DNA from: a virus
DNA length: 55,086 bases
Strand: one strand, 5' to 3'
Virus record (IMG/VR): IMGVR_UViG_3300046533_000764
Span: 1 to 55,086 of that record
A program made the translations under genes and the position numbers. Positions 667-55,086 of this stretch are shown here, piece after piece. Numbering within the stretch: position 1 is the stretch's first letter; each line of letters starts with the position of its first letter. The notes under the pieces were generated by a model. The model saw only the letters and a program-made list of their open reading frames with translations, had not been told where the DNA came from and searched no databases.

Positions 667-839
667 ATAGAACACCATGGGCGGGACAATCTTGGAAACC
701 TGAACGTAGAGGCGGAACACCCTGGCCAGGGGCAACTTGGCCGCCTAACCGAGAGCGATCTCAGGCCCCGGGACCGGCCCCTAAAGCGCCACGTCCAATG
801 AGTTATCGCGCTGCTGGTCCCAAAAGACCGAGCGCCTGA
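663..839 (+). CDS. possible tiny Pro/Arg/Trp-rich protein (58 aa)
   Basis: A 58-codon ORF starting at the ATG that overlaps the upstream stop (ATGA). The product is rich in Pro, Arg, Gly and Trp (MNRTPWAGQSWKPERRGG at the N terminus) and has no hydrophobic core, so it would be disordered. Its last 37 bases overlap the 3' end of the opposite-strand HNH-AP2 gene. Support is only the coupling and the open frame; it could be the untranslated tail of the operon. Confidence 0.35.
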   Translation: MNRTPWAGQSWKPERRGGTPWPGATWPPNRERSQAPGPAPKAPRPMSYRAAGPKRPSA

Positions 840-1294
840 TTAGTCAGCGCGAACTCTCCAAAGTGGGTCTGAGCAGCACTGTCGTACGCTTGAGCTGCAT
901 CATCCTCGTGGTCAAACAGGCCAAGGTAAACCACTCGATTGTCAGCGCGTATCTGAGCAACCCATCGATTGCGGTTAGCGCGCCATGACACCCCTTTGAA
1001 TTTTGAAGTGTGTGGCTTTTTAGACCTTCGGTTTTGGCCGTTCTGGGAGTGTGTTGAAATCCGCATATTCCGCCTCTGGCAGTTGAGTCCGTTACCGTCC
1101 TTGTGGTCTATGCGAACCCCAGCAGGCGGCTGCGTCAGGAAGTTGTGTAGGCGTTGCTGGCGCTTCTTAACCTTTCTTGCGGCGTACCAGTTCCAGCCAT
1201 CAAAGACGGCACACCACTTGTGCGCTGAGACACTTTCGAAGTCGGGATCGTCAATGAGAGCAAACTTGCCTTGGGTCAGCGGGATTTGTTTCAC
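803..1294 (-). CDS. HNH-AP2 homing endonuclease, copy 1
   Basis: A 163-aa free-standing endonuclease of the HNH-AP2 type. The N-terminal region (IPLTQGKFALIDD) is shared with two other copies in this window. The HNH core lies around residues 60-80 (RIDHKDGNGLNCQRRNMRI) with the QNGQNRR motif after it, and a C-terminal AP2-like DNA-binding domain spans about 98-152 (FKGVSW, YLGLFDHEDDAAQAYD, HFGEFALTNQALG). Start is a GTG. The protein continues past the usual family end (ALGLL) by a few residues. Such proteins cut DNA so that the gene copies itself into empty sites; here it sits downstream of the ATP-grasp gene, overlapping a convergent plus-strand tail. Confidence 0.85.
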   Translation of the reverse strand: MKQIPLTQGKFALIDDPDFESVSAHKWCAVFDGWNWYAARKVKKRQQRLHNFLTQPPAGVRIDHKDGNGLNCQRRNMRISTHSQNGQNRRSKKPHTSKFKGVSWRANRNRWVAQIRADNRVVYLGLFDHEDDAAQAYDSAAQTHFGEFALTNQALGLLGPAAR

Positions 1295-5747: not shown

Positions 5748-6236
5748 TTATAAGGCACCTATTTGTTGGTTGGTTCTCGCGAATTCACCAAAATGCTTTA
5801 ATGCCGCCGCATCGTAAGCGCGTGCAGCTAGCTCCGGTGAATCGAAGTAACCAAGATGTTTCTTCTTTTTGTTAACTCTAATACTGGCGGTCCACCCGCC
5901 TAAAGCTTTGAAGTGGTGAACGCCCTTAAACGGTGCAGAGTGGATTTGCAGCTTGCGGTTCTGGCCATTCTGAGCGCGTGTCGCAGGGCGGATATTACTT
6001 TTCTGATTGTTGAGCCCGTTGCCGTCTTTGTGGTCAGTATGCTCTGCGTGATGATCTAAAATCAGGCGGTGCATTTTTAATTCTTTTCGTTTCCCATTCC
6101 TCCGAACGGTCGTAACCGCATAGCGCCTTCCGCTTTTGGGATCGACGTGGCTTTGCCAGTTGTAACGGGACACCAATTCAAAATCTTCATCATCGACAAT
6201 GGCAAAATCACCACGGGTAAGAGGGATCGCTTTCAT
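5748..6236 (-). CDS. HNH-AP2 homing endonuclease, copy 3
   Basis: A 162-aa HNH-AP2 endonuclease (MKAIPLTRGDFAIVDD start; HNH core EHTDHKDGNGLNNQKSNIR; AP2-like FKGVHHFKALGGWTA, LGYFDSPELAARAYD, HFGEFARTN). Its ATG overlaps the stop of the upstream 133-aa gene (ATGA). Its TAA lies where the portal reading frame, in a different phase, is already open, so the gene abuts or interrupts the 5' end of the portal gene. This is the copy whose insertion has the clearest effect on a neighbour. Confidence 0.87.
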   Translation of the reverse strand: MKAIPLTRGDFAIVDDEDFELVSRYNWQSHVDPKSGRRYAVTTVRRNGKRKELKMHRLILDHHAEHTDHKDGNGLNNQKSNIRPATRAQNGQNRKLQIHSAPFKGVHHFKALGGWTASIRVNKKKKHLGYFDSPELAARAYDAAALKHFGEFARTNQQIGAL

Positions 6237-7353: not shown

Positions 7354-7541
7354 TGTGACAAAATTAGCTTTTCCATTTCTGGGTGAACGGGGCTTTGAGC
7401 ATGACGGTATTCATGGAGAATCTGCGCCGTCTGCAAGGCATCCGATCCCTTTCTCCACATTTTCATGTAACAGGCACAGCACAGGCCTCGCGCTCTGGCT
7501 GGTCTATCGGGATGGCATAACGCTGGTGGCGGGGTTTTCAT
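7350..7541 (-). CDS. small putative zinc-binding protein (63 aa)
   Basis: A 63-aa basic protein with CHPDRPARARGLCCACYMK, a short Cys/His cluster of a type seen in small phage proteins. It overlaps TerL upstream (ATGA) and the HAD gene downstream (ATGA), making it part of one tightly coupled transcript. A DNA-related role is likely but not shown. Confidence 0.6.
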   Translation of the reverse strand: MKTPPPALCHPDRPARARGLCCACYMKMWRKGSDALQTAQILHEYRHAQSPVHPEMEKLILSQ

Positions 7542-10252
7542 AATTCTTGGTGGGAGAGCAGTCCTGCTTGAATCGCCTCCTGATACTCCTGTGCCTCAGT
7601 GTCAAAATAGTCCCCTTCATCCCCCTCAGCCTCGATGACCCTGTAACCAGCGTGCCCTACGATAAAACCACGCTGGCGGGCGCCTTCCACTCCGAAGCTA
7701 ACGCCGTCCGCAAGGTCGGGGGAGATCCCCATACGCTCCCGAGTCTCATCCTTGCCCTCCAGCTCAGTCTTGCCGGCCCTGGTCGGGCGATACTCGCGCA
7801 TGGAGAATTCGCGGGCAGCTTCCTTGGGGAAATTCCGCATTTGATCGCACTCCACCACGTTTCGAACCGCAAACCACATTTCAGCGTTGAACCGTCCGTA
7901 CTCCTCATCGGCCCGTTTTGGCCGCTTGATTTTGGTTTTCTCGTCATAGATAAGCCAATCCGCCCGCACGGGGCGAGTGGTAGGCTTATCTCCTTCAGCC
8001 AGGGCAACCGGAACCTCACGGCCAAACACTTTGGCGAACGCGGCACCTGTAGTGCCACGGCCTGTAGAGCCGTAAAAGATATTGTTCGGGTCAATCCCCA
8101 GGCGCAAAGAGTCCCGGTACACAAAGTTGGCTATCTGGTCATCTGGGCTAATCTTGGTGGCGACCAAGATCGGAATGTCACTGTGCTCACCAAAGGAGAT
8201 AATTTCCCGCCCTTCAGTGTCGAAACCAAAGTCCAGCCAACCCCACATACACCGATCGGCAGCATCACCACCCCAGGCAGGATCCAGCCAGCCGATCCGA
8301 GTCTGTTTGTCATCCCGCCACACCACGGGACCGAAAGCGCCGTGTGCCTCACACTGGGCGACTGTAAGCACGCGCTTGCCCAGCATGTTCATTTTCATTA
8401 TGCCCACGCATTGGGTCCAGTAATGGAGAGAGTCCTCAGTCCATCGTTTGGCTACCAACTTGATCGAGTTGCGGCTTATCAGCCGTGGGTAGGGCGGCCG
8501 CACACCCTCAGGAACATCGAAGTTTGGCGAGTCCGTGCCGACAAGGTTCAGGCATTGGCCGCGGTGGAACTTGATCGGCCAACTTGCAGTTTTGCGATTG
8601 CCGTCAACGCTCGGCCACCCGTCAACGGGCTCGGCGGCCATGGAAAGCTGGTCGTAAGGGTCGTGCTTGGGGTTGCCTGAGCCAATGACCTTAATATCTG
8701 GATCCCCGGCAGCATCCAGATCGGCGCTTTGGAACATGTTCGGCAGGCAATCGAGGAAAGTAGGTTGCATGAACTGCAGCTCATCGGCGAGGAAACGGAT
8801 ACGGGCTTGTTTGATGCCGGCGAACACGCCCAGGCCCACCCAGGACTTGCCCACGTAACAGGCGCGGCCAACTATCCCCTTTCGAATGTCCCTGGAGCTA
8901 TCAACTTGAATGTTATCAGTGGAGATCGCCCGTTTGCTCTCGATCACGTTGCCTGGAAGCCAGGAATACCGCTCCCGGGCCTTAGCCATGAGCATTTTAA
9001 TTTCTCCGTAAACCGCCATGTCCAGCTTGTCCACCGTGGTTGTGGAGATCAAAACTAGCGTGTCATTTGGGTGAGCCCAGTAGTCGATCAGGACAAACTC
9101 TGAGGCATGGCTTGTTTTCTGAGTGTTGTGATGAATCGTGCCTTCGGCGAAGTAGTGACGCGGCCCAGGTACTTCCAAGTCGTAATAAAAATCTTCACCC
9201 ACCGATTTTATGCTTGAAATGGGTATTGATCGCACCCCATACTGGGCATATGGCTTTTCAATCCCCTTCTCAGTGCGAGAAAAATCGGACGCTTGTGCTA
9301 CGTATGTCACGGGATGGTGCGTCATTGACGAAAATCGCGAAAGCTGTCGGAACGAATCGGCGTCATGTCGAAACCTTCCTGAGGAAGAATGGGGCATGGC
9401 GGAAGTTCCCGCATGGGAGCCCGGGAGCAAAACACCCAGCGTGGAAGGGCGGAAAAAGGAAAGACCCGCGTGGCTATATTCGGGTTTCCGCACCAGACCA
9501 TCCGCGCAAAGCGAAGTATGGCGGCGATGTGTACGAACACCGATTGGTGATGGAAAAGGCACTTGGTCGATTTCTTCGAAAGGGTGAGGTCGTTCACCAC
9601 AAAAACGAAAACCCGGCCGACAATCGGATTGAAAATCTGGAGTTGTTCTCCACCAATGGCAGACATCTGCAAGCGGAGTTAAAGGGCCGCTGCCCGAACT
9701 GGAGTCTTGGCGGGATTCACCGTATGCAAGAAGTCGCCGCCCGACGCGCAAAGTATCCACGGTCAAAAATCCCGACTCGGTTAAAACGCGGTGTTTCGGG
9801 GAAGCTGTAAACACCCTCCCGTCCGCAAGGCGGATTTCTAACAAGCCGGTGAATCCCTTCACGAAAGGGATTTCCGCCAGTTTCGGCCCTTCGAGCGTCA
9901 TCACCATCGGGCGAATACCCTTGCGGCAGAGTTCCTCGATGGGGGTTTGCTGTCCAGTGACCGGGTTTAAGAGTCGCGTGTGCCCCGCTACGCACGAACC
10001 GGCGCCCATGAGGATCGTGACGATGTTTTCAAGGAAATGGGTGTAAATAAGGTCGGTCCATCGGTGGCGATAGCGGTCGGGCCAAGCCAGCCGGCGCGCT
10101 TCCATGAAATGCTCGAAAAGGCCTAAACCGCACTCCTGACCTTCACTGCCAACCCACTTTCCCCCCTGCGCGATGGCTGACAACTCTATAGCTAGGTCGT
10201 CCGCGTCAGATGGCCAGCGGGCAGAGTATTTGAGGATTTCAGAATCAGCCAC
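7538..10252 (-). CDS. terL: terminase large subunit interrupted by an intein
   Basis: A 904-aa precursor; without residues 87-376 it is about 614 aa, a normal TerL length. TerL is the ATP-driven motor that fills the capsid and cuts the concatemer. The Walker A motif is rebuilt only after splicing (GAGS before the intein, TQKTS after it). Walker B is IRFLADELQFM (about 485-495), the coupling motif is VIGSGNP (about 522-528), and nuclease acids appear at GWLDPAWGG (Asp about 657) and SPDLADGV near the C terminus. Start is a GTG. Because the intein splits the ATP-binding loop, packaging would depend on splicing. TerL heads the leftward block. Confidence 0.92.
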   Translation of the reverse strand: MADSEILKYSARWPSDADDLAIELSAIAQGGKWVGSEGQECGLGLFEHFMEARRLAWPDRYRHRWTDLIYTHFLENIVTILMGAGSCVAGHTRLLNPVTGQQTPIEELCRKGIRPMVMTLEGPKLAEIPFVKGFTGLLEIRLADGRVFTASPKHRVLTESGFLTVDTLRVGRRLLAYGESRQDSSSGSGPLTPLADVCHWWRTTPDFQSDCRPGFRFCGERPHPFEEIDQVPFPSPIGVRTHRRHTSLCADGLVRKPEYSHAGLSFFRPSTLGVLLPGSHAGTSAMPHSSSGRFRHDADSFRQLSRFSSMTHHPVTYVAQASDFSRTEKGIEKPYAQYGVRSIPISSIKSVGEDFYYDLEVPGPRHYFAEGTIHHNTQKTSHASEFVLIDYWAHPNDTLVLISTTTVDKLDMAVYGEIKMLMAKARERYSWLPGNVIESKRAISTDNIQVDSSRDIRKGIVGRACYVGKSWVGLGVFAGIKQARIRFLADELQFMQPTFLDCLPNMFQSADLDAAGDPDIKVIGSGNPKHDPYDQLSMAAEPVDGWPSVDGNRKTASWPIKFHRGQCLNLVGTDSPNFDVPEGVRPPYPRLISRNSIKLVAKRWTEDSLHYWTQCVGIMKMNMLGKRVLTVAQCEAHGAFGPVVWRDDKQTRIGWLDPAWGGDAADRCMWGWLDFGFDTEGREIISFGEHSDIPILVATKISPDDQIANFVYRDSLRLGIDPNNIFYGSTGRGTTGAAFAKVFGREVPVALAEGDKPTTRPVRADWLIYDEKTKIKRPKRADEEYGRFNAEMWFAVRNVVECDQMRNFPKEAAREFSMREYRPTRAGKTELEGKDETRERMGISPDLADGVSFGVEGARQRGFIVGHAGYRVIEAEGDEGDYFDTEAQEYQEAIQAGLLSHQEL
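9125..9994 (-). mobile_element. Cys1 intein inserted in the TerL Walker A motif
   Basis: Residues 87-376 of the TerL precursor form a 290-residue intein. Block A begins CVAGHTRLLNP, block B is VFTASPKHRVLT with the conserved His, block F is FYYDLEVPGPRHYFAEG and block G is TIHHN followed by Thr as +1 residue. These are the elements needed for standard class 1 splicing (Cys1, penultimate His, terminal Asn). The central 150 or more residues, where an endonuclease normally lies, read as a low-complexity His/Pro/Ser/Arg-rich linker with no LAGLIDADG or HNH motif in the sense frame. That same DNA encodes an HNH endonuclease on the other strand. Confidence 0.88.
9250..9810 (+). CDS. HNH endonuclease encoded antisense inside the TerL intein
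   Basis: A 186-aa protein on the plus strand wholly inside the minus-strand intein. Residues about 21-47 (RDGASLTKIAKAVGTNRRHV) look like a helix-turn-helix, and residues about 96-139 are a good HNH core: EHRLVMEKALGR, then VVHHKNENPADNRIENLEL and a final His (NGRHL). The ATG at 9250 is preferred; the frame is open further upstream but that part is the antisense of the intein's C-terminal splicing block. It starts opposite intein residue 335 of the precursor and ends opposite residue 148, so it spans exactly the tolerant region between the N- and C-terminal splicing blocks. No good ribosome-binding site is visible. Inference: the homing enzyme that moves the intein. Confidence 0.85.
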   Translation: MAFQSPSQCEKNRTLVLRMSRDGASLTKIAKAVGTNRRHVETFLRKNGAWRKFPHGSPGAKHPAWKGGKRKDPRGYIRVSAPDHPRKAKYGGDVYEHRLVMEKALGRFLRKGEVVHHKNENPADNRIENLELFSTNGRHLQAELKGRCPNWSLGGIHRMQEVAARRAKYPRSKIPTRLKRGVSGKL

Positions 10253-10331: not shown

Positions 10332-10387
10332 GGGTATTGCTGCCATTCAAAGATCGACGTATTGACCAGAAAACGGTACACTGTGGT

Positions 10388-11200
10388 ATGCCATTCATTT
10401 ACGCACTTTCAGACCCGCGCAACCCGAGACTCCCGAGGTACATCGGTAGGACGACTAAAAGTCTAAACTGGCGACTCACTAAGCATTTCTCGTTGGCGAA
10501 GCAACGCCCACACTATGCCATTTCTAAATGGATTCATGAGCTGAGATCTCTTTCGTTGTGCCCTATAATTTACGTGCTGGAAACAACTTCTGCCGAAGCA
10601 ATGCGGCTTCGGGAAACTCACTGGATTCAGTTTTTCAGACCGCTTGGCACGCTGCTTAATCAGTCTGATGGGGACGGGATGCTGGGGATGAAACATCCGC
10701 TTCCGAGAAGCGTTTACGAACGAGCGGCGAAAACCAGAACGGGCAGACCGATGAGTCAAGTCCAGAAAGAAAACTGGATTAGGGCGGGAGGACAAACCAA
10801 ATTCAAAGCAGGTGGAAAGATGTGGTGTGATTCCGTATCCAAAGCCATTTGTTCCGAGGACGGTTTATGGATGTTCAAATCCATCAGAGAAGCAGCCAGC
10901 ACTATCGGCGCGCATCCATCCAATCTGGGACACTCCATAAAACTGGGTTGGAAATGCCGTGGGACGCCCTGGAGATACTGCGCCTTTGATCCGGCCCACG
11001 AAAATCCATCATCAACCCTTGGAGCGCGGCCGTTCCGAAAACAAACAGCTCGAATTACAGAAGAGGACAAAAAACGAATTCACGCCATGTCGGTTGAAGG
11101 CGTAACCCAAACGGAAATAGCCAGATGTTTTGGTTGTGACCAATCACACGTAAGCAGAATTATTAATAATCAACGAAAGAATTCACAGTGCCAAGCGTAA
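10388..11200 (+). CDS. GIY-YIG homing endonuclease, copy 1
   Basis: A 270-aa protein. The GIY-YIG core is FIYALSDPRNPRLPRYIGRT at residues 3-22, followed by the Arg/His helix (NWRLTKHF) and a catalytic-type Glu (RLRETHWIQFF). The middle holds a NUMOD-like DNA-binding part (MFKSIREAASTIGAHPSNLG, CRGTPWRY) and the C terminus a helix-turn-helix (GVTQTEIARCFGCDQSHVSR). The ATG at 10388 places the motif at the N terminus as usual. It is the first gene of the rightward tail block, upstream of a fibre gene whose GTG start lies in its last codons. Confidence 0.87.
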   Translation: MPFIYALSDPRNPRLPRYIGRTTKSLNWRLTKHFSLAKQRPHYAISKWIHELRSLSLCPIIYVLETTSAEAMRLRETHWIQFFRPLGTLLNQSDGDGMLGMKHPLPRSVYERAAKTRTGRPMSQVQKENWIRAGGQTKFKAGGKMWCDSVSKAICSEDGLWMFKSIREAASTIGAHPSNLGHSIKLGWKCRGTPWRYCAFDPAHENPSSTLGARPFRKQTARITEEDKKRIHAMSVEGVTQTEIARCFGCDQSHVSRIINNQRKNSQCQA

Positions 11201-20403: not shown

Positions 20404-20874
20404 TTATTGAATATGAGCCCACGTAGTTCCATTGATTGCGTCAACCGCCGTCCGATCGCAGACGCCAAAGCGTTCAGAGATCGCCGTGGTACTCAACCCC
20501 TGTTGTTTCAACTGGCGCATTTCGAGAACGGCTTGCGGATTCAATTTCGCCGCATTGTTGTTCTCCCCCTTCAGGTCTGGCCACCTTCCTCTTTCAAGGC
20601 AGTCTGCCGCGTTATCCTTTTGCTTCCCAAGCTTCAAGTGGGCGGGATTACAGCACGGTGGTTTATCGCATCTGTGCTGAACCTGAAAACCTTTTGGAAT
20701 TTCTCCATTTTTGGAGGTCCAGGCAAAACGGTGCGCGAGCATGTGGATGCTGTGGGTTACATCAAACCGACCGTAGCCGCCAATGGTGCGCCTGCCCGTG
20801 AAAAGCCAACAGTCATCCGCGCCTCGAATCACGACCTTACTCCAAAATCGGTCTGTTGTTGTGGGGTTGTTCAT
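20404..20874 (-). CDS. HNH endonuclease inserted against the tail operon
   Basis: A 156-aa HNH protein on the strand opposite to all its neighbours. The core is VQHRCDKPPCCNPAHLKLG (about 80-98) with a preceding GYGRFDVTHSIHMLAHRFAW, the pattern of the HNH_3 type; the C-terminal part has a helix-turn-helix (GLSTTAISERFGVCDRTAVD). It fills the gap between two tail genes almost completely. Orientation and placement mark it as a mobile insertion, and its promoter side faces the leader of the next tail gene. Confidence 0.87.
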   Translation of the reverse strand: MNNPTTTDRFWSKVVIRGADDCWLFTGRRTIGGYGRFDVTHSIHMLAHRFAWTSKNGEIPKGFQVQHRCDKPPCCNPAHLKLGKQKDNAADCLERGRWPDLKGENNNAAKLNPQAVLEMRQLKQQGLSTTAISERFGVCDRTAVDAINGTTWAHIQ

Positions 20875-31870: not shown

Positions 31871-32337
31871 CCCTCTTGCAGGTCCACCCCAGTCCCCTCT
31901 CCATTGCTACCCGCCAACCCTTCCTTAATCGCCTGCCGCGCCCCGCCCTTAACCCCATCCTCGCCCGCCTCCTTCTTCCGCTTCCGATACTCTTGGTGAT
32001 ACTTCCGCTGATACTCGCGCCGGTCCTCCGCACTCATCAGCCGCCGATACTTCTCGTGATTCAGTAATAACCAACCGCCGTCCACCTCCTTAATCCGCCG
32101 CCCATCGTGGTCCTTGGTCCGACTCCACTTGTCCGGCTTCTGAAACTGCGCCAGCGCCCCTTCACACTCCTTCAACGTCACCTTCGCCCTGTCCGCCAAC
32201 CCCGGCACACTCGCCCTCACCACCCCATCACAATCCACCATCGCCAACATCGTTATCCACACCAACCGCTCCTCTTTACTCGCCTGCCAAATCGTTGAAT
32301 CCAATATGCTGTGAAACAGCTTGGTGTAGGTAATCAT
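31867..32337 (-). CDS. replication initiation-type protein (replisome organiser N-terminal-like)
   Basis: A 156-aa protein with the winged-helix pattern of phage replication proteins: MITYTKLFHSILDSTIWQ, VWITMLAMVDCDGVVRASVP, then GLADRAKVTLKECEGALAQF, SRTKDHDGRRIKEVDGGW and LLNHEKYRRL. In related phages this domain begins replication proteins that bind the origin or load helicase. The C terminus is a short basic region (KYHQEYRKRKKEAG) with no ATPase part. The ATG overlaps the stop of the upstream PAPS-reductase-like gene. Confidence 0.72.
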   Translation of the reverse strand: MITYTKLFHSILDSTIWQASKEERLVWITMLAMVDCDGVVRASVPGLADRAKVTLKECEGALAQFQKPDKWSRTKDHDGRRIKEVDGGWLLLNHEKYRRLMSAEDRREYQRKYHQEYRKRKKEAGEDGVKGGARQAIKEGLAGSNGEGTGVDLQEG

Positions 32338-33158
32338 ACCCCGCACATCCCCTCGCATTCGTTGTTGAACATGTTGAGCTGGCCGCGTTCTTCTTCGGTG
32401 GAGAAATCAACTTCGGAGAGTGGCTTTCCAGATCGGTGCAGGAATGGTTTGCCTCTAAATCCAGTAGCCGCGCAGATAGCTTTTTGCAGCTTAATTTCGT
32501 AGGCAACCGCCCTCACAAATTGATCTGGCATTTCCACTTTTAAGAACCTCCACTCTGAATCGCTATGGTAGGGACAAAAAACGCAAGCCGAACGCATCGG
32601 AACCGGAAAGGAGTGCGCCAGCATCCATTTTTTGCAACCCGTGCGCGTCATCCCTATTTCTACGAGCGGCCATCTATGAGTAATGCCAGCAGTCCGGCTC
32701 TCTTTCATTCTCAATGATTCATCCGCGCTTATACCAATCCAGTTAATAGCCGGCTGCTTATTCCGTAGCCGATTGGTTTCCTTGATTAACGGCCTTAGCT
32801 TGCTGTCCCTGGTGCATTGGCGCATGAGTGGCCCTGAGCACTTACCGTTTTCAAACATAAAAGCCGGTGGTGCCAGCCGCGTCCAAGTCTTTCCCCCGGA
32901 AGAAAAGACCGTAGTAGATTCATCCTCCAGACTGCCACGCGTGACGCGATGCACCGGAAACGGCAGTTGCTTCTCCAACCAGTCCAACCACACGTAAACA
33001 CTCTTGGGCTCGGCCTGCGTGTCCGCGAATATCGCCGCAACCGGCATCGGCGTTATCTCACCAGCAGCAGCCATCAAGGCCATCGCGCTCGACTGCACAC
33101 CAGCACCTAAACTGATTATTTCTATCGGTTTCTGCAACACCCTCAAATTCAACCACAT
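32334..33158 (-). CDS. PAPS reductase-like / alpha-hydrolase (PP-loop) family protein
   Basis: A 274-aa protein with the PP-loop-like nucleotide motif IISLGAGVQSSAMALMAA near the N terminus, FADTQAEPKSVYVWLDWLEK after it, and a Cys pair CVFCPYHSDSEW in the C-terminal third. Phage proteins of this group are usually annotated as phosphoadenosine phosphosulfate reductase-like; several are suspected to act in DNA or RNA sulfur modification rather than sulfate reduction. The ATG at 33158 is preferred; the open upstream extension contains the repeat-coded LYLYLYVF and is doubtful. Confidence 0.75.
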   Translation of the reverse strand: MWLNLRVLQKPIEIISLGAGVQSSAMALMAAAGEITPMPVAAIFADTQAEPKSVYVWLDWLEKQLPFPVHRVTRGSLEDESTTVFSSGGKTWTRLAPPAFMFENGKCSGPLMRQCTRDSKLRPLIKETNRLRNKQPAINWIGISADESLRMKESRTAGITHRWPLVEIGMTRTGCKKWMLAHSFPVPMRSACVFCPYHSDSEWRFLKVEMPDQFVRAVAYEIKLQKAICAATGFRGKPFLHRSGKPLSEVDFSTEEERGQLNMFNNECEGMCGV

Positions 33159-33733
33159 CCCCAAAAACCTGTCAATCTTTTCGTAAACAAAAGTAAACGA
33201 AGTAAAGACATACAGATACAGATACAGATCTAAGGCGGATGTTTGACTCTCCGCTCCGCGAGTTCCCGGCTCAGAAGCGGTCATAAATTGGGGGTGAGAG
33301 TGCTTCCCAGCACCCCCACCACCCTCCCTCACCATACTTTCTCAATACTGCGAAAAACCACCCACGTCAACTGTTCCACGTGGAACCCAACCTCAGGTGG
33401 ACTCCGCCACCCTCTCCAGATATTCCTCTGCGCTCTTCCCCGAGCTCCTAACACACGATCCTCACCCAGCGTCCATGTGGCTGCCACTCAGCCTCATCCA
33501 CACTTCCCCTCACCCTTTTATACACAGCGTCGAACTGGGAGTCACTGGCGGGCGCGAGGCCGTCAAAGGCGGGGTGGCGGGTGTGGGGTGTGGGGACGGT
33601 CGGGCGCGAAAGAGATGCCTTGTTTTCCTACGATTGGGTGTGTTCGCAGCCCACCCCGATTGGGTGAGCAATGGACTGAGGCTGATGCATTGTAGTGAGC
33701 AGCGCGTGATGTACGCAGCAGCGTCACTGTCGA
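33159..33733. other. 575-bp gene-free region, candidate replication/partition locus
   Basis: Long frames here are low-quality overlaps with no recognisable domain. The region holds three GTAAA-containing repeats (33183-33206), three ATACAG units (33209-33228), a hairpin TGGGGGTG/CACCCCCA (33289-33318), a parS-like palindrome (33372-33387) and two DnaA-box-like 9-mers: TCATCCACA (33494-33502, one mismatch) and TTATACACA (33518-33526, full TTATNCACA match). It lies upstream of the leftward replication and PAPS-reductase-like genes. Together these suggest an origin or partition site. Confidence 0.45.
33372..33387. promoter_or_regulatory. parS-like centromere site
   Basis: TGTTCCACGTGGAACC is a near-perfect 16-bp palindrome that matches the bacterial chromosomal parS pattern TGTTnCACGTGnAACA at all but the last base. 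parS is the loading site of the CTP-dependent clamp ParB. No parA or parB gene is in the window, so the site would have to be used by a host ParB or by a protein coded elsewhere in the phage. Confidence 0.65.
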
Positions 33734-34078
33734 TCAGCGTGGCGTGGGTAGCGTGGACCTTGGCGCCGGGTCAGGGGCGCGGGATCGGTTGACAGTGCCA
33801 GGTAGCGGGCGCCCTGCTAGCTTGCGCTCCATTTCGGCGAGGTGCGAGCAGGCCCGGGCTAAGAGCTCGCGGTCCTTGGGTTCCTTGGCGGAGGCGAGGC
33901 GTTGTAGGGTATCGGTGAGTATTTCGCGGGTGCGGGCTAGTGTTTCCTGTTGGAAGTCCTCGCCATTGGAGGCCATGCGGAGGCGTTCCGCGTGGAGGAG
34001 GCGAGAGGCGGCCTTCGCGGCATTGGCGCGTTGGGCCATCTCGACCGCGTTCTCTTTGGTGAAAACCGGGCTTGGCAT
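33734..34078 (-). CDS. small helical protein, possibly terminase small subunit-like
   Basis: A 114-aa, largely helical, basic protein (FTKENAVEMAQRANAAKAAS, then TLARTREILTDTLQRLASA, ARACSHLAEMERKLAGRPLPGT) with a disordered Pro/Arg tail. The pattern FTKENA plus a helical bundle reminds me of small DNA-binding proteins proposed as small terminase subunits, but there is no firm motif and it lies far from TerL. It flanks the putative origin region. Confidence 0.5.
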   Translation of the reverse strand: MPSPVFTKENAVEMAQRANAAKAASRLLHAERLRMASNGEDFQQETLARTREILTDTLQRLASAKEPKDRELLARACSHLAEMERKLAGRPLPGTVNRSRAPDPAPRSTLPTPR

Positions 34079-37990: not shown

Positions 37991-39243
37991 ACGATCCAAT
38001 TCCAATTAACGCAGAAGTTATGCCGTCTGAGAGCATGGCGGTTGCGGTTCGGCCACCATCTTCCCCGCCTGGGTTGTTTGGTGCCGTTGAGCCGGAACAG
38101 GTAATTGCAAAGGCTACTGCGGTTGCCACCGCATTAAAGGACGTACTCCACTCCCAAAAATTGATTTCTACGATCAGTGGGAGGGAATATCCAAAATGCG
38201 AGGCGTGGACGCTACTTGGAACAATGCTGGGGGTGTTTCCTGTTCTTGAGTGGTGCCGGCCTATTGAAGGTGGATGGGAGGCCAGGGTCCAGGCTAAAAC
38301 CAAGGACGGCTCTATTATCGGAGCAGCGGAGGCCGAATGTCTCAGAAGTGAGAAAAATTGGGCCAATCGTGACGACTTCGCCCTGCGGAGCATGGCACAG
38401 ACCCGAGCAACGGCTAAATGCCTCAGGATGCCACTCGGTTTCGTTATGACCTTGGCCGGTTACGAGGTTACACCCGCCGAGGAGATGGCCTTTGACCACC
38501 CCAAAACCTCCCAGCCGCCCCCAGGACGTTCCAGGCCCTCCCAGCATAGGGCCACACCACCCAAAGAGGCTGCTACCCCCAGCGCAGCCCCGGCATCCAG
38601 CCCTAAAACCGTTCCCCTCGCTGACGAGAACAGCCGGGGGCGGGTATTGCGGCAATTCGCGGATCTGGACCTCGCCAAGGAGTTTTTCGCCAAATTGGGG
38701 TGGATACTGCCAGCGGGTGAAACTGTGGAGGATCTTCCATTGCAATACGTTCCAATCACGAAGAAGCAAAACGATGCCCTGATCAACTCCTTCAAAAACT
38801 TCGAAGCGGGCGGGGAGCTGGTCCAGCCATACAAACCTAACCCAACCAAGCCGGCTGAACCTGCAAAGCCCACCCCCGCAGCCAAGCCTAAGGATCCGGA
38901 GTGGTGGCGGGGGATCCTTGTCCCAATCCCCCCTAAGGGTGTTCGGCGTGACGACTATTTGAAGGCGCCTCAGACCGTTGGTGGCCTATATGATGATCGG
39001 CACGACCCAGACACCGCAAAGCGACTCTTTGGGTTTATTGCACACTTTGAGGTTAAAAAGACCTGGGTAGGTGATGACGGGCAGGAGCGGGCCAATTCCC
39101 CGGGCCAAATTGCGACTGATACGAAATTCCGAGAAGCCCTAGATGCAGCCGCAGATTACCACGAAAAACACAAAAACGACACAGACCAACCCCAAGCGGC
39201 CTACGAGCCCGCTGAACCAGAGGACCTTGACGTCCCGTTTTGA
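37987..39243 (+). CDS. recombination/ssDNA-type protein with SSB-like acidic tail
   Basis: A 418-aa protein. The N-terminal domain (about 30-165) has GREYPKCEAWTLLGTMLGVF, IGAAEAECLRSEKNWANRDD and ALRSMAQTRATAKCLRMPLG, a pattern found in phage proteins suspected of single-strand annealing or ssDNA binding. A Pro/Ala-rich linker (about 170-210) leads to a second region, another Pro/Ala linker, a third folded part and the end PEDLDVPF. That end is very like the acidic tip of SSB proteins, which docks repair enzymes. Neighbours are nucleases, fitting a recombination module. The exact family is not certain. Confidence 0.62.
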   Translation: MNDPIPINAEVMPSESMAVAVRPPSSPPGLFGAVEPEQVIAKATAVATALKDVLHSQKLISTISGREYPKCEAWTLLGTMLGVFPVLEWCRPIEGGWEARVQAKTKDGSIIGAAEAECLRSEKNWANRDDFALRSMAQTRATAKCLRMPLGFVMTLAGYEVTPAEEMAFDHPKTSQPPPGRSRPSQHRATPPKEAATPSAAPASSPKTVPLADENSRGRVLRQFADLDLAKEFFAKLGWILPAGETVEDLPLQYVPITKKQNDALINSFKNFEAGGELVQPYKPNPTKPAEPAKPTPAAKPKDPEWWRGILVPIPPKGVRRDDYLKAPQTVGGLYDDRHDPDTAKRLFGFIAHFEVKKTWVGDDGQERANSPGQIATDTKFREALDAAADYHEKHKNDTDQPQAAYEPAEPEDLDVPF

Positions 39244-40726: not shown

Positions 40727-41166
40727 CTCCCGACGAAGAAAAGAAAGTCCGCGCCGCGTTCCCCGGCATGAGCCGCGCTTGCATGGCACGCACGTTTGGG
40801 GAGATTAAGCAATCAGAGCAGAAGGAGCGGCTCGATGTAAACCGGATGCTTGGAATTACCCCCAGCACGGATGAGGCAAACCTCAACAAAACAGAGAAGG
40901 GCTACCTCGATTATCTTCGCCGAATGCGGCCGCAATGGATCGGGGTCCAGTGTATCACGCTTAAACTGGGGCATGACTGCCGATACACCCCCGACTTCTG
41001 GGCGTTGGACGATACCGGTTTGCGAGCGATTGACGTCAAGGGCGGCCACACCTGGGAGGACTCACTGATAAAACTTCGCGTTGCCGCTCGACTATACCCG
41101 TTCATCTACTTTGTGATCGCCAAACGCAAGGGCCTGGTCTGGGAGCACACACCTTTCAAGGCTTGA
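40723..41166 (+). CDS. DUF1064-like resolvase/endonuclease
   Basis: A 147-aa protein with the pattern of phage Holliday-junction-type nucleases: LNKTEKGYLDYL, then CRYTPDFWALDDTGLRAIDV with KGGHTWEDSLIKLRVAARLY. PDF and DVKG give the PD-(D/E)XK acids and lysine, and the later Lys lies in the helix. It starts at an ATGA overlap. Likely resolves branched DNA before packaging. Confidence 0.72.
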   Translation: MTPDEEKKVRAAFPGMSRACMARTFGEIKQSEQKERLDVNRMLGITPSTDEANLNKTEKGYLDYLRRMRPQWIGVQCITLKLGHDCRYTPDFWALDDTGLRAIDVKGGHTWEDSLIKLRVAARLYPFIYFVIAKRKGLVWEHTPFKA

Positions 41167-46164: not shown

Positions 46165-47673
46165 TCAATCCTCGACCGGGAGAACAAATCCAGGCGTGGG
46201 GGTGTACTCGCCGCATTGGGCGTTGTAAGCCAGCAAGCTCTGGTAATCGGTGATACTGGTCGGGCCCGTAGGCGCCGTGTTGGTCCGAGGCACGCGAACG
46301 TACGGTTGCGGCTCGCCCAGCGCGAAGATTATACGCTCGATCTCAGGGTAGATGGTTTTCTCAGCCAAGTCGTACTCGCCGAGCCAGTAGCCCTTGTTCT
46401 TCTTATCGTTGTTGAACTGGCACAGGACACCCGTGTTAGGGTCAACCGCGTTGAAAAAGTCGGGGGACTTCCAAGTCCATTGGCCCATGAACGAGCGGGC
46501 CAGACCGAACTTCATGTCATCATTGACCGAGGTAACGTCCCCACAGTAAACGATACGGGCATCCCGGTTGTAACAGTGGTACATCCGGATGGGGGCGTTC
46601 TTCCAGGCAGTGGAGTAAACGGGCTTGAGGCCGAACGTAGCCGCCACGTTTTCAAACGGCCAAATCTGCTGGACCCAAACCGAGCCCGTAAGGGCCGCGC
46701 CCGAAAGGTCTTTGCCGTCCATGTCGCCGCGGAACCGGAAGCGCATCTGTGCCTTGTCCTCTTTGAACAGCCAGTCACCGCACCCCTGGGTAACGCCGTA
46801 GCTGTAGAAGGCGCCGCCTTTGGCGAAGTCAGCCGCCGAGTACATCTGCGTAAGGGCTGGGTTGGCAACCAAGAGCCGGCGCCGCGTGGTGGCATCCACA
46901 GTGATCGAGAATTTTCCGTCCACCAACCAATCCTTGTCGTGGTAGCCATTGGCCGCCAAGTCCTCCTGAATGTTGTTCAGGTATTCCATGGAGAGCTGGC
47001 CCAGGGCATTGGACAGCAGCGTGGTTGTGCCAAAGCCAAGCGCCGAAAGGGCGCCGTTGGCGTTGAGATTGATGAACAGGGAATTCTGGGTGATGCCCGC
47101 GCCGCCCGTGACGTTGACCGCGAACATGTTGTCCGCAATGTCGATCGAAACTGGGTTGCCCTGGCTGTCCTGCAGACCGGCCAAGAACAAACCGGCGCCC
47201 TGGGCTTGGGTGCCCGCCTTGCGGAGGGTGAGCAGGCGAAGGAAGTCGGAGCAGATATTTTCGGGCAGCTCTTTGTAGCCCTCAGCGATCGCGGCCATCT
47301 TGGCGATGCCTTCCTCGATCGTGTCGAGCTGGTCCAAACAGAAAACCGGCGTCTGATATTCCCGGCGATAGCGGTCGTAGCGAAGCTGGTCAACACCATG
47401 CCCGACGTACTGGCGCGGGGTGTCGCAGGGAGTGCCCACGCACGGATCGGCCGTGAACTGTGTCCACAGGCCCGGGTCATTTGGCCGCGTGACATAGACG
47501 CGCTCGTGCAGGTGAGTGGTGCCGGTGAAGGTGGGCCATGTCTCAGTGCGATACATGCCCGTGTAAATATAGGACATTGGCTTGCGGTCTTTGGAGATCC
47601 GCTTGTCCCAATCGTAGGGACGGCGCCCGAGGAAATCATTGAACTGCTGGCATTGAGCCGTTGTGAGAGGCAT
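46165..47673 (-). CDS. probable major capsid protein
   Basis: A 502-aa protein. It starts MPLTTAQCQQFNDFLGRRPY and shows the long mixed alpha/beta run expected of HK97-fold capsid proteins, with a helical segment (LDQLDTIEEGIAKMAAIAEG), an extended loop region, a nucleic-acid-like spine (FSITVDATTRRRLLVANPAL) and a beta-rich end. No motif is diagnostic. Size, its position first in an operon with fibre and decoration-like genes, and the following strong hairpin support the call. There is no clear ribosome-binding site. Confidence 0.62.
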   Translation of the reverse strand: MPLTTAQCQQFNDFLGRRPYDWDKRISKDRKPMSYIYTGMYRTETWPTFTGTTHLHERVYVTRPNDPGLWTQFTADPCVGTPCDTPRQYVGHGVDQLRYDRYRREYQTPVFCLDQLDTIEEGIAKMAAIAEGYKELPENICSDFLRLLTLRKAGTQAQGAGLFLAGLQDSQGNPVSIDIADNMFAVNVTGGAGITQNSLFINLNANGALSALGFGTTTLLSNALGQLSMEYLNNIQEDLAANGYHDKDWLVDGKFSITVDATTRRRLLVANPALTQMYSAADFAKGGAFYSYGVTQGCGDWLFKEDKAQMRFRFRGDMDGKDLSGAALTGSVWVQQIWPFENVAATFGLKPVYSTAWKNAPIRMYHCYNRDARIVYCGDVTSVNDDMKFGLARSFMGQWTWKSPDFFNAVDPNTGVLCQFNNDKKNKGYWLGEYDLAEKTIYPEIERIIFALGEPQPYVRVPRTNTAPTGPTSITDYQSLLAYNAQCGEYTPTPGFVLPVED

Positions 47674-54120: not shown

Positions 54121-55086
54121 TAACCCATTTGCGGACCTCGAGGGGAAGTTCGCCGCCTTCGACAAGAAACCAGACACAACCAAGGGCAAACCCAAGGAAG
54201 GCGCCGCCGCGCCGGCCGCGCCCACCCCCCCCGCCAAACCGGAACCAAAGCGGCCCGCTGACAATCTGCGTGCCGAGCTTGAGAAGTGGAAAACGGAAGC
54301 CGCAACCAAAACACAGCTCGCCACCGAGTACGAGAAGCGGATCAAGGAATTCGAGCTCAGGGGGAAGGACACTGAGGCCTTAACCGCTCGCCTGACCGAG
54401 ATCGAGAAGGAGCGGGACAATGCCCAGGCTGAAGCGCGGCGAGCAAAGAAGGAAGTGGATCCGGCCTTTACCAAACGATTTCAGGAACCCTTTGACGAGG
54501 CATCCTTGAGCGCCGAGGACCTGATAACCCAGATGGACGTCACGGACCCCGAGACTGGCGACATGCGCCGCGGGACCAAAGCTGATCTCCAATATCTCTA
54601 CTCGATTGACTCGCCGACCAAGCGCAACGCCGAGATCCGCAAAATGTTCGCCGATGACGCGATCACTATCATCCCCAAGCTCGATCGGATGAAGGAGATC
54701 AACTCCTCTTTCCGCCGTGCGTTGGCATCCGAACACGCCCAGGCGATCGAGAAGGATAAGCAGGAGCAAGGCGCAAGGTTACAGGCGCGGCAGCAGTGGA
54801 AATCAACCGCGGATCGCTTAGGCGTGGAGCTGGCCGAGAAGGTGGAGGAGTACCACGATGCCGCCGACGACAAAGAAGCCGCGGAGCTTCGCCAGCAGGG
54901 GTACGGTATTTTTGATACCGAGCCGGCCAACCATGAGCAAGGGATCGTCAAATTCGCCCATGTGCGCCAGATGGTAGCCGCGCACTACCCCATGAAGCTG
55001 CAGATCACCCGCCTCAAGTCCGAGCTGGCGGCCGCCAAAGAGGAACTGGCCAAGATCAAAGAGCCCGACCCCAACACCACCACCCG
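53927..55086 (+). CDS. scaffold-like coiled-coil protein, cut by the window end
   Basis: An open frame of at least 386 codons reaching the last base of the window. The first 50 residues are almost only Pro and Ala (MPETLPAPPAAPAAPPASAS), then comes NPFADLEGKFAAFDKK, another Pro/Ala stretch, and a long charged coiled coil (ADNLRAELEKWKTEAATKTQ; LTARLTEIEKERDNAQAEAR), followed by an alpha-rich domain (FDEASLSAEDLITQMDV; ADLQYLYSIDSPTKRNAEIR) and a second coiled coil. This is the general design of phage head scaffolds or assembly chaperones. It begins in DNA shared with the preceding frame and has no clear ribosome-binding site. Confidence 0.65.
   Translation, partial: MPETLPAPPAAPAAPPASASPPPTAAPPPTPAPAPAVPAASPPSAPPSAAPPAIGTSGTQGAAPDNPFADLEGKFAAFDKKPDTTKGKPKEGAAAPAAPTPPAKPEPKRPADNLRAELEKWKTEAATKTQLATEYEKRIKEFELRGKDTEALTARLTEIEKERDNAQAEARRAKKEVDPAFTKRFQEPFDEASLSAEDLITQMDVTDPETGDMRRGTKADLQYLYSIDSPTKRNAEIRKMFADDAITIIPKLDRMKEINSSFRRALASEHAQAIEKDKQEQGARLQARQQWKSTADRLGVELAEKVEEYHDAADDKEAAELRQQGYGIFDTEPANHEQGIVKFAHVRQMVAAHYPMKLQITRLKSELAAAKEELAKIKEPDPNTTT

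Follow-up and report, generated by a model that had tools for sequence, protein, structure and literature searches.

The window is the whole stretch of DNA that was analysed, 55,086 nt in length, and it makes up an entire virus record, i.e. a phage genome of about 55 kb. In the relative G003, which is circularly permuted, only about 250 bp separate the two ends of the window; the genome is therefore essentially complete. The locus of interest is a gene-free stretch flanked by a phosphoadenosine-phosphosulfate-reductase-like (PAPS-reductase-like) gene and a small protein gene, both on the minus strand (Table 1). The start of the PAPS-reductase-like gene is most likely near position 33140 and not 33335, since its relatives align only from residue ~67 onwards. 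This gene turns up in hundreds of viral contigs with changing neighbourhoods and is missing from G003, the closest relative of the window, and it therefore looks like a mobile accessory gene. As such a gene does not keep its neighbourhood, its use as a synteny probe returned 80 loci, none of them with a parS site at ≤2 mismatches. The original prediction placed the site in the largest gene-free stretch of the window; based on our own gene calls, this stretch ranks second.

Table 1. Features of the window discussed in the text (positions in nt of the 55,086-nt stretch).
Feature	Position	Strand	Remarks
PAPS-reductase-like gene beside parS	32334..33140	-	
Gene-free stretch around the site	33141..33733	.	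593 bp, own gene calls
parS site TGTTCCACGTGGAACC	33372..33387	.	Identical to P. aeruginosa parS1/parS4
32-bp segment holding parS	33372..33403	.	Missing in closest relative G003 (junction of CCCACGTCAAC and CCGCCACCC)
Minimum of the cumulative GC skew	33525		153 bp from parS
Non-coding motif around GTGTGGGGACGGTCG	33578..33620	.	Conserved in G001, G002 and G003
Small protein gene of unknown function	33734..34078	-	Opposite side of gene-free stretch; homologue at same place in G003
Larger gene-free stretch	54121..54817		697 bp, own gene calls
904-aa protein gene	7538..10252		Weak intein-splicing match, residues 135-376
Homing-type HNH/AP2 and GIY-YIG endonuclease genes	803..1294, 5748..6236, 10337..11200, 20404..20874		Mostly missing at the same place in relatives

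The site itself, TGTTCCACGTGGAACC, contains the 14-bp perfect palindrome GTTCCACGTGGAAC and has an intact CACGTG core. A parS-type site in single copy had been predicted here, and its sequence, coordinates and copy number are all borne out; no further parS-like copy at ≤3 mismatches was found anywhere in the 55,086-nt window. Its final base, earlier regarded as a deviation from the parS pattern, is no defect, since the 16-mer is an exact match to parS1 and parS4 of Pseudomonas aeruginosa (PMC4368675). When chromosomal-type parS is taken as a match to TGTTYCACGTGRAACA or to a proven natural parS, the window's site belongs to this type. According to the same study (PMC4368675), parS1 and parS4 bind ParB with an affinity only slightly below that of the perfect palindromes parS2 and parS3, a strain in which only parS4 is intact segregates its chromosome normally, and an intact CACGTG core matters for binding. 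Moreover, one parS suffices to position a replicon (PMC7022226). The short distance to the minimum of the cumulative GC skew would fit an origin-proximal place as in chromosomes, with a mixed picture among the relatives (735 bp in G004, 3.6 kb in G005 and 13.9 kb in G002). A terminator or RNA hairpin was dropped as an explanation, as no terminator-like pattern is present at the site, the RNA fold is not unusual (z of -1.1 and -0.8) and no Rfam families were found in the window.

Six-frame searches of the window gave no match to ParB_N (PF02195), HTH_ParB (PF17762) or the ParA-type AAA_31 domain (PF13614). The absence of parA and parB, earlier read from the open reading frames, is thereby upheld, and a phage-encoded ParABS system of the P1/N15 type was rejected. 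Under a first-order Markov model, 0.0022 sites with ≤1 mismatch to TGTTYCACGTGRAACA are expected in the window, and 3e-5 exact copies of TGTTCCACGTGGAACC on either strand. The statement that a chance match is very unlikely thus stands for one genome; it does not stand alone for a scan of thousands of windows, where the comparative data decide. Since the window was picked because it has a site, its relatives and the databases provide the fairer test.

Six relatives (G001-G006, 54-59 kb) were found via two conserved proteins, giving with the window (G000) a family of seven genomes. A single-protein search for a relative of the large virion gene, a search for cultured-phage nucleotide relatives of the parS region and a two-profile search of genome contigs for a related prophage, made for host assignment, each returned none. 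Neither ParB_N nor ParA domains were found in the six relatives. A parS with ≤1 mismatch is present in three of the seven genomes: the window, G004 (TGTTCCACGTAGAACA) and G005, which has the perfect TGTTCCACGTGGAACA. G002 carries TGTTCCACATGGAACG, with two mismatches and a broken CACGTG core, which may bind weakly judging from its sequence. In G001, G003 and G006, no parS at ≤2 mismatches was found. With 0.002-0.004 matches at ≤1 mismatch expected per genome, the three observed compare with 0.02 expected over the family; leaving out the window, two of six genomes have such a site versus 0.019 expected (Poisson P about 2e-4). When each of the 65,536 possible 16-bp palindromes was looked for in the seven genomes, matches at ≤1 mismatch in three genomes were seen for just two of them; parS is one, and the other is common to G000, G002 and G003.

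The positions of these sites are mostly non-orthologous. In G002, the site is found in the corresponding gene-free stretch; a conserved motif follows it at about 270 bp and follows the window's site at about 200 bp. The site of G004 is inside a short open frame in the early region, and that of G005 is in frame inside a virion-type gene of 1,831 aa (translated ...TGNVPRGTITP...). In G003 the flanks align up to parS, and the site is gone in a clean 32-bp indel. Free mutation among relatives had been named as an observation that would speak against recruitment of the host ParB, and the outcome is divided: G003 and two others have no site, yet three relatives carry a parS-like site of their own. 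As G001, G003 and G006 are without it, parS is dispensable. The independent gains at different places, one of them inside a gene, fit a loading site that has no need of a fixed location and not a promoter operator. Taken from these alignments, parS in this family is a trait that has been gained and lost, and it is probably beneficial but dispensable.

In a collection of viral contigs, the exact TGTTCCACGTGGAACC occurs in at least 119 contigs. A scrambled palindrome of equal composition that keeps the ACGT centre occurs in nine, and one keeping the CACGTG core in a single contig; therefore, CACGTG as a restriction site was dropped as the explanation. From these control counts of 1-9 versus at least 119, roughly 1-8% of the occurrences would be due to chance. 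Among the matches listed, the contigs fall into 72 nucleotide clusters with no conserved flanks. Of those ≥15 kb among the matches listed (n = 45), a ParB domain was matched in six and in none of the other 39; 41 contain exactly one parS site. The genes beside parS in 32 ParB-less representatives include terminase, portal, tail, head, helicase and integrase genes; such neighbours indicate that the contigs are phages and not stray pieces of chromosome. One viral contig of 23.7 kb has three parS sites within 460 bp (8181, 8209 and 8628 in contig coordinates) and no ParB domain; it may be either a phage in which parS sites are clustered or a piece of a chromosomal origin.

Cultured phages were searched with 30-base probes, for which a 16-base match just clears the threshold. 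The probe with TGTTCCACGTGGAACA returned 184 records (94 at ≥99% identity) and the probe with TGTTTCACGTGAAACA 386 records (257 at ≥99% identity), versus 0, 19 (mostly flank plus half-site) and 4 records for three control palindromes in the same flanks; these counts include duplicates and close kin and are not independent events. The matching phages mostly belong to ParB-bearing hosts; the commonest hosts are Pseudomonas, Mycobacterium, Bacillus, Listeria, Microbacterium, Arthrobacter and Gordonia, genera that are known to carry ParB. Escherichia, the phages of which are numerous in the cultured-phage collection, is outside the ten commonest names in both probe lists. Ten records are Klebsiella phages, the hosts of which are not known to have a chromosomal ParB. 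Some matches are therefore chance or have another cause, and those in Klebsiella may be due to chance or plasmid-related. Named phages with an exact parS include phi29-like phages (in connector genes), Otagovirus-like genomes and Listeria P100-like phages, as well as Microbacterium, Gordonia and Arthrobacter phages, microviruses and the circular Tunturiibacter phage Tunturi_2.

In Pseudomonas phage M5.1, parS is found three times at one mismatch; two of these sites lie near the genome ends, with copies in a terminal repeat. Seven phages sharing its terminal-region DNA (Kremar, VCM, Psxphi15, KIL1, KIL4, Pyxpy01 and 16Q) lack the site there, but a perfect parS is present at another place in the Pyxpy01 genome. 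As far as these sequences go, the M5.1 family displays the same gain-and-loss pattern as the family of the window.

The predicted site is thus confirmed, and its occurrence goes beyond chance. The proposal that the phage recruits the host ParB is partly supported by the present analysis and is the best-supported reading of the data, given the exact match to a proven parS, the lack of a ParA or ParB of the phage's own, the shifting sites in relatives and the enrichment over scrambled palindromes. It is thus likely, judging from the sequence comparisons, that the window's site is a chromosomal-type parS that loads host ParB onto the phage genome. As the same tag recurs in unrelated phages far above chance, such viruses probably borrow the segregation protein of their host. 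In bacteria, ParB-CTP loads at parS, slides along the DNA, is moved by ParA and recruits SMC. After entry of the phage, host ParB-CTP would bind the phage parS and slide onto the neighbouring DNA, which would then resemble host origin DNA. Host ParA and the ParB-loaded SMC complex could subsequently place the phage DNA and share it out at division. The benefit would be that, with lysis delayed, the phage DNA is stably carried by cells that grow, starve or differentiate; by analogy with phi29 and Spo0J in spores, this carriage together with placement of the DNA is most likely what the site offers.

Phage phi29 is the closest known case. It is among the cultured matches, with an exact TGTTTCACGTGGAACA in gene 10. 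According to a passage in PMC9437464, which cites Meijer 2005, the phi29 genome is trapped in spores by the host Spo0J (ParB). Like phi29, for which that passage reports host ParB acting on the genome, the window phage carries an exact chromosomal-type parS and no ParB of its own. In contrast to phi29, it is an unrelated phage of 55 kb with the site in a gene-free stretch. A second parallel is the SGI1 island, a mobile element that has ParB sites mimicking the parS of the IncC helper plasmid and no ParB of its own, and is stabilised by the ParABS of another replicon (PMC10954446). It differs in that the ParB is of a plasmid (KorB) type, that its 22-bp site is present in two copies, and that the provider is the IncC helper plasmid, which the island displaces (PMC10954446). 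P1, N15, cyanophage Mic1 and extrachromosomal mycobacteriophages also have a centromere-like site on the phage genome; however, these phage-plasmids encode ParA and ParB beside a private site, whereas the window phage has neither gene and a bacterial chromosomal site (PMC7156551, PMC7157519).

A possible but rather doubtful alternative is that host ParB is recruited for a lytic purpose. The site could titrate ParB/SMC off the chromosome, serve to compact or position the phage DNA so that it can be replicated and packaged, or, through the spreading of ParB, silence genes in its vicinity. No integrase, Rep or plasmid-type genes are recognisable among the window's Pfam matches, and a lone parS is also found in Otagovirus-like and Listeria P100-like phages, both of which are known as lytic. 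In addition, promoters at a distance of kilobases can be affected by ParB bound to a single parS (PMC7022226). Against this, one site per genome makes a poor sponge, and copies in the terminal repeat of M5.1 or in structural genes point to no single regulated gene.

We regard it as unlikely that the site is a chance 16-bp palindrome that resembles parS without function. At the expected rate per genome given above, some ≤1-mismatch matches will arise among thousands of phages, and the closest relative lacks the site. However, the window's relatives carry parS independently, and the 16-mer exceeds its controls in the viral collection by far. Still less probable is an operator bound by a transcription regulator, of the phage or of the host, that recognises a parS-like sequence. 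Such an operator would agree with a palindromic site about 230 bp upstream of the PAPS-reductase-like gene and with the one early phage protein that matches an HTH domain (PF13560). The original prediction had itself named a repressor operator with a similar site elsewhere as an outcome that would overturn it, but the genome contains no further site resembling this one within three mismatches, and no promoter-like pair is present beside it. Furthermore, the site is missing from the orthologous stretch in G003, lies within a coding gene in G005, and its exact sequence is common to unrelated phages without shared flanks.

Returning to the loading of host ParB, a 16-bp sequence that is reachable by few mutations would give a phage the use of the host ParABS/SMC machinery without any partition gene. 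If true, this accounts for how phages with neither an integrase nor partition genes could be maintained while cells grow, and chromosome segregation joins the host functions exploited by phages. It would also provide a sequence-only marker that is testable in laboratory pairs such as phi29 with Bacillus subtilis, or parS-bearing phages with Pseudomonas putida KT2440. As a single case, the window would be a further example of the phi29 type; greater interest attaches to the broad pattern. With parS recurring across unrelated phages, what has been known mainly from phi29 can be tested for its generality. On balance, we lean towards the lone chromosomal parS being a widespread, repeatedly gained and lost phage adaptation, by which viruses of ParB-bearing bacteria would hitch-hike on or exploit host segregation by means of a 16-bp tag instead of a self-encoded protein, over a range much wider than phi29 in spores. 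On lone parS sites of phages using host ParB, nothing beyond phi29 was found in the accessible part of the literature; with this reserve, the breadth of the phenomenon looks under-reported there.

Several other features of the window were noted. Alignments of the 904-aa protein with its relatives begin only at residue 376, as would be the case with an intein that interrupts the window's copy near its start. The window also contains several homing-type endonuclease genes (Table 1). Finally, the motif around GTGTGGGGACGGTCG, with a AAGAGATGCCTTG-like sequence after it, is shared by the window, G001 (at 46892), G002 (at 41049) and G003 (at 38914), four genomes that have diverged elsewhere. It adjoins the GC-skew minimum in the window and in G003, and is possibly an origin, packaging or control element.
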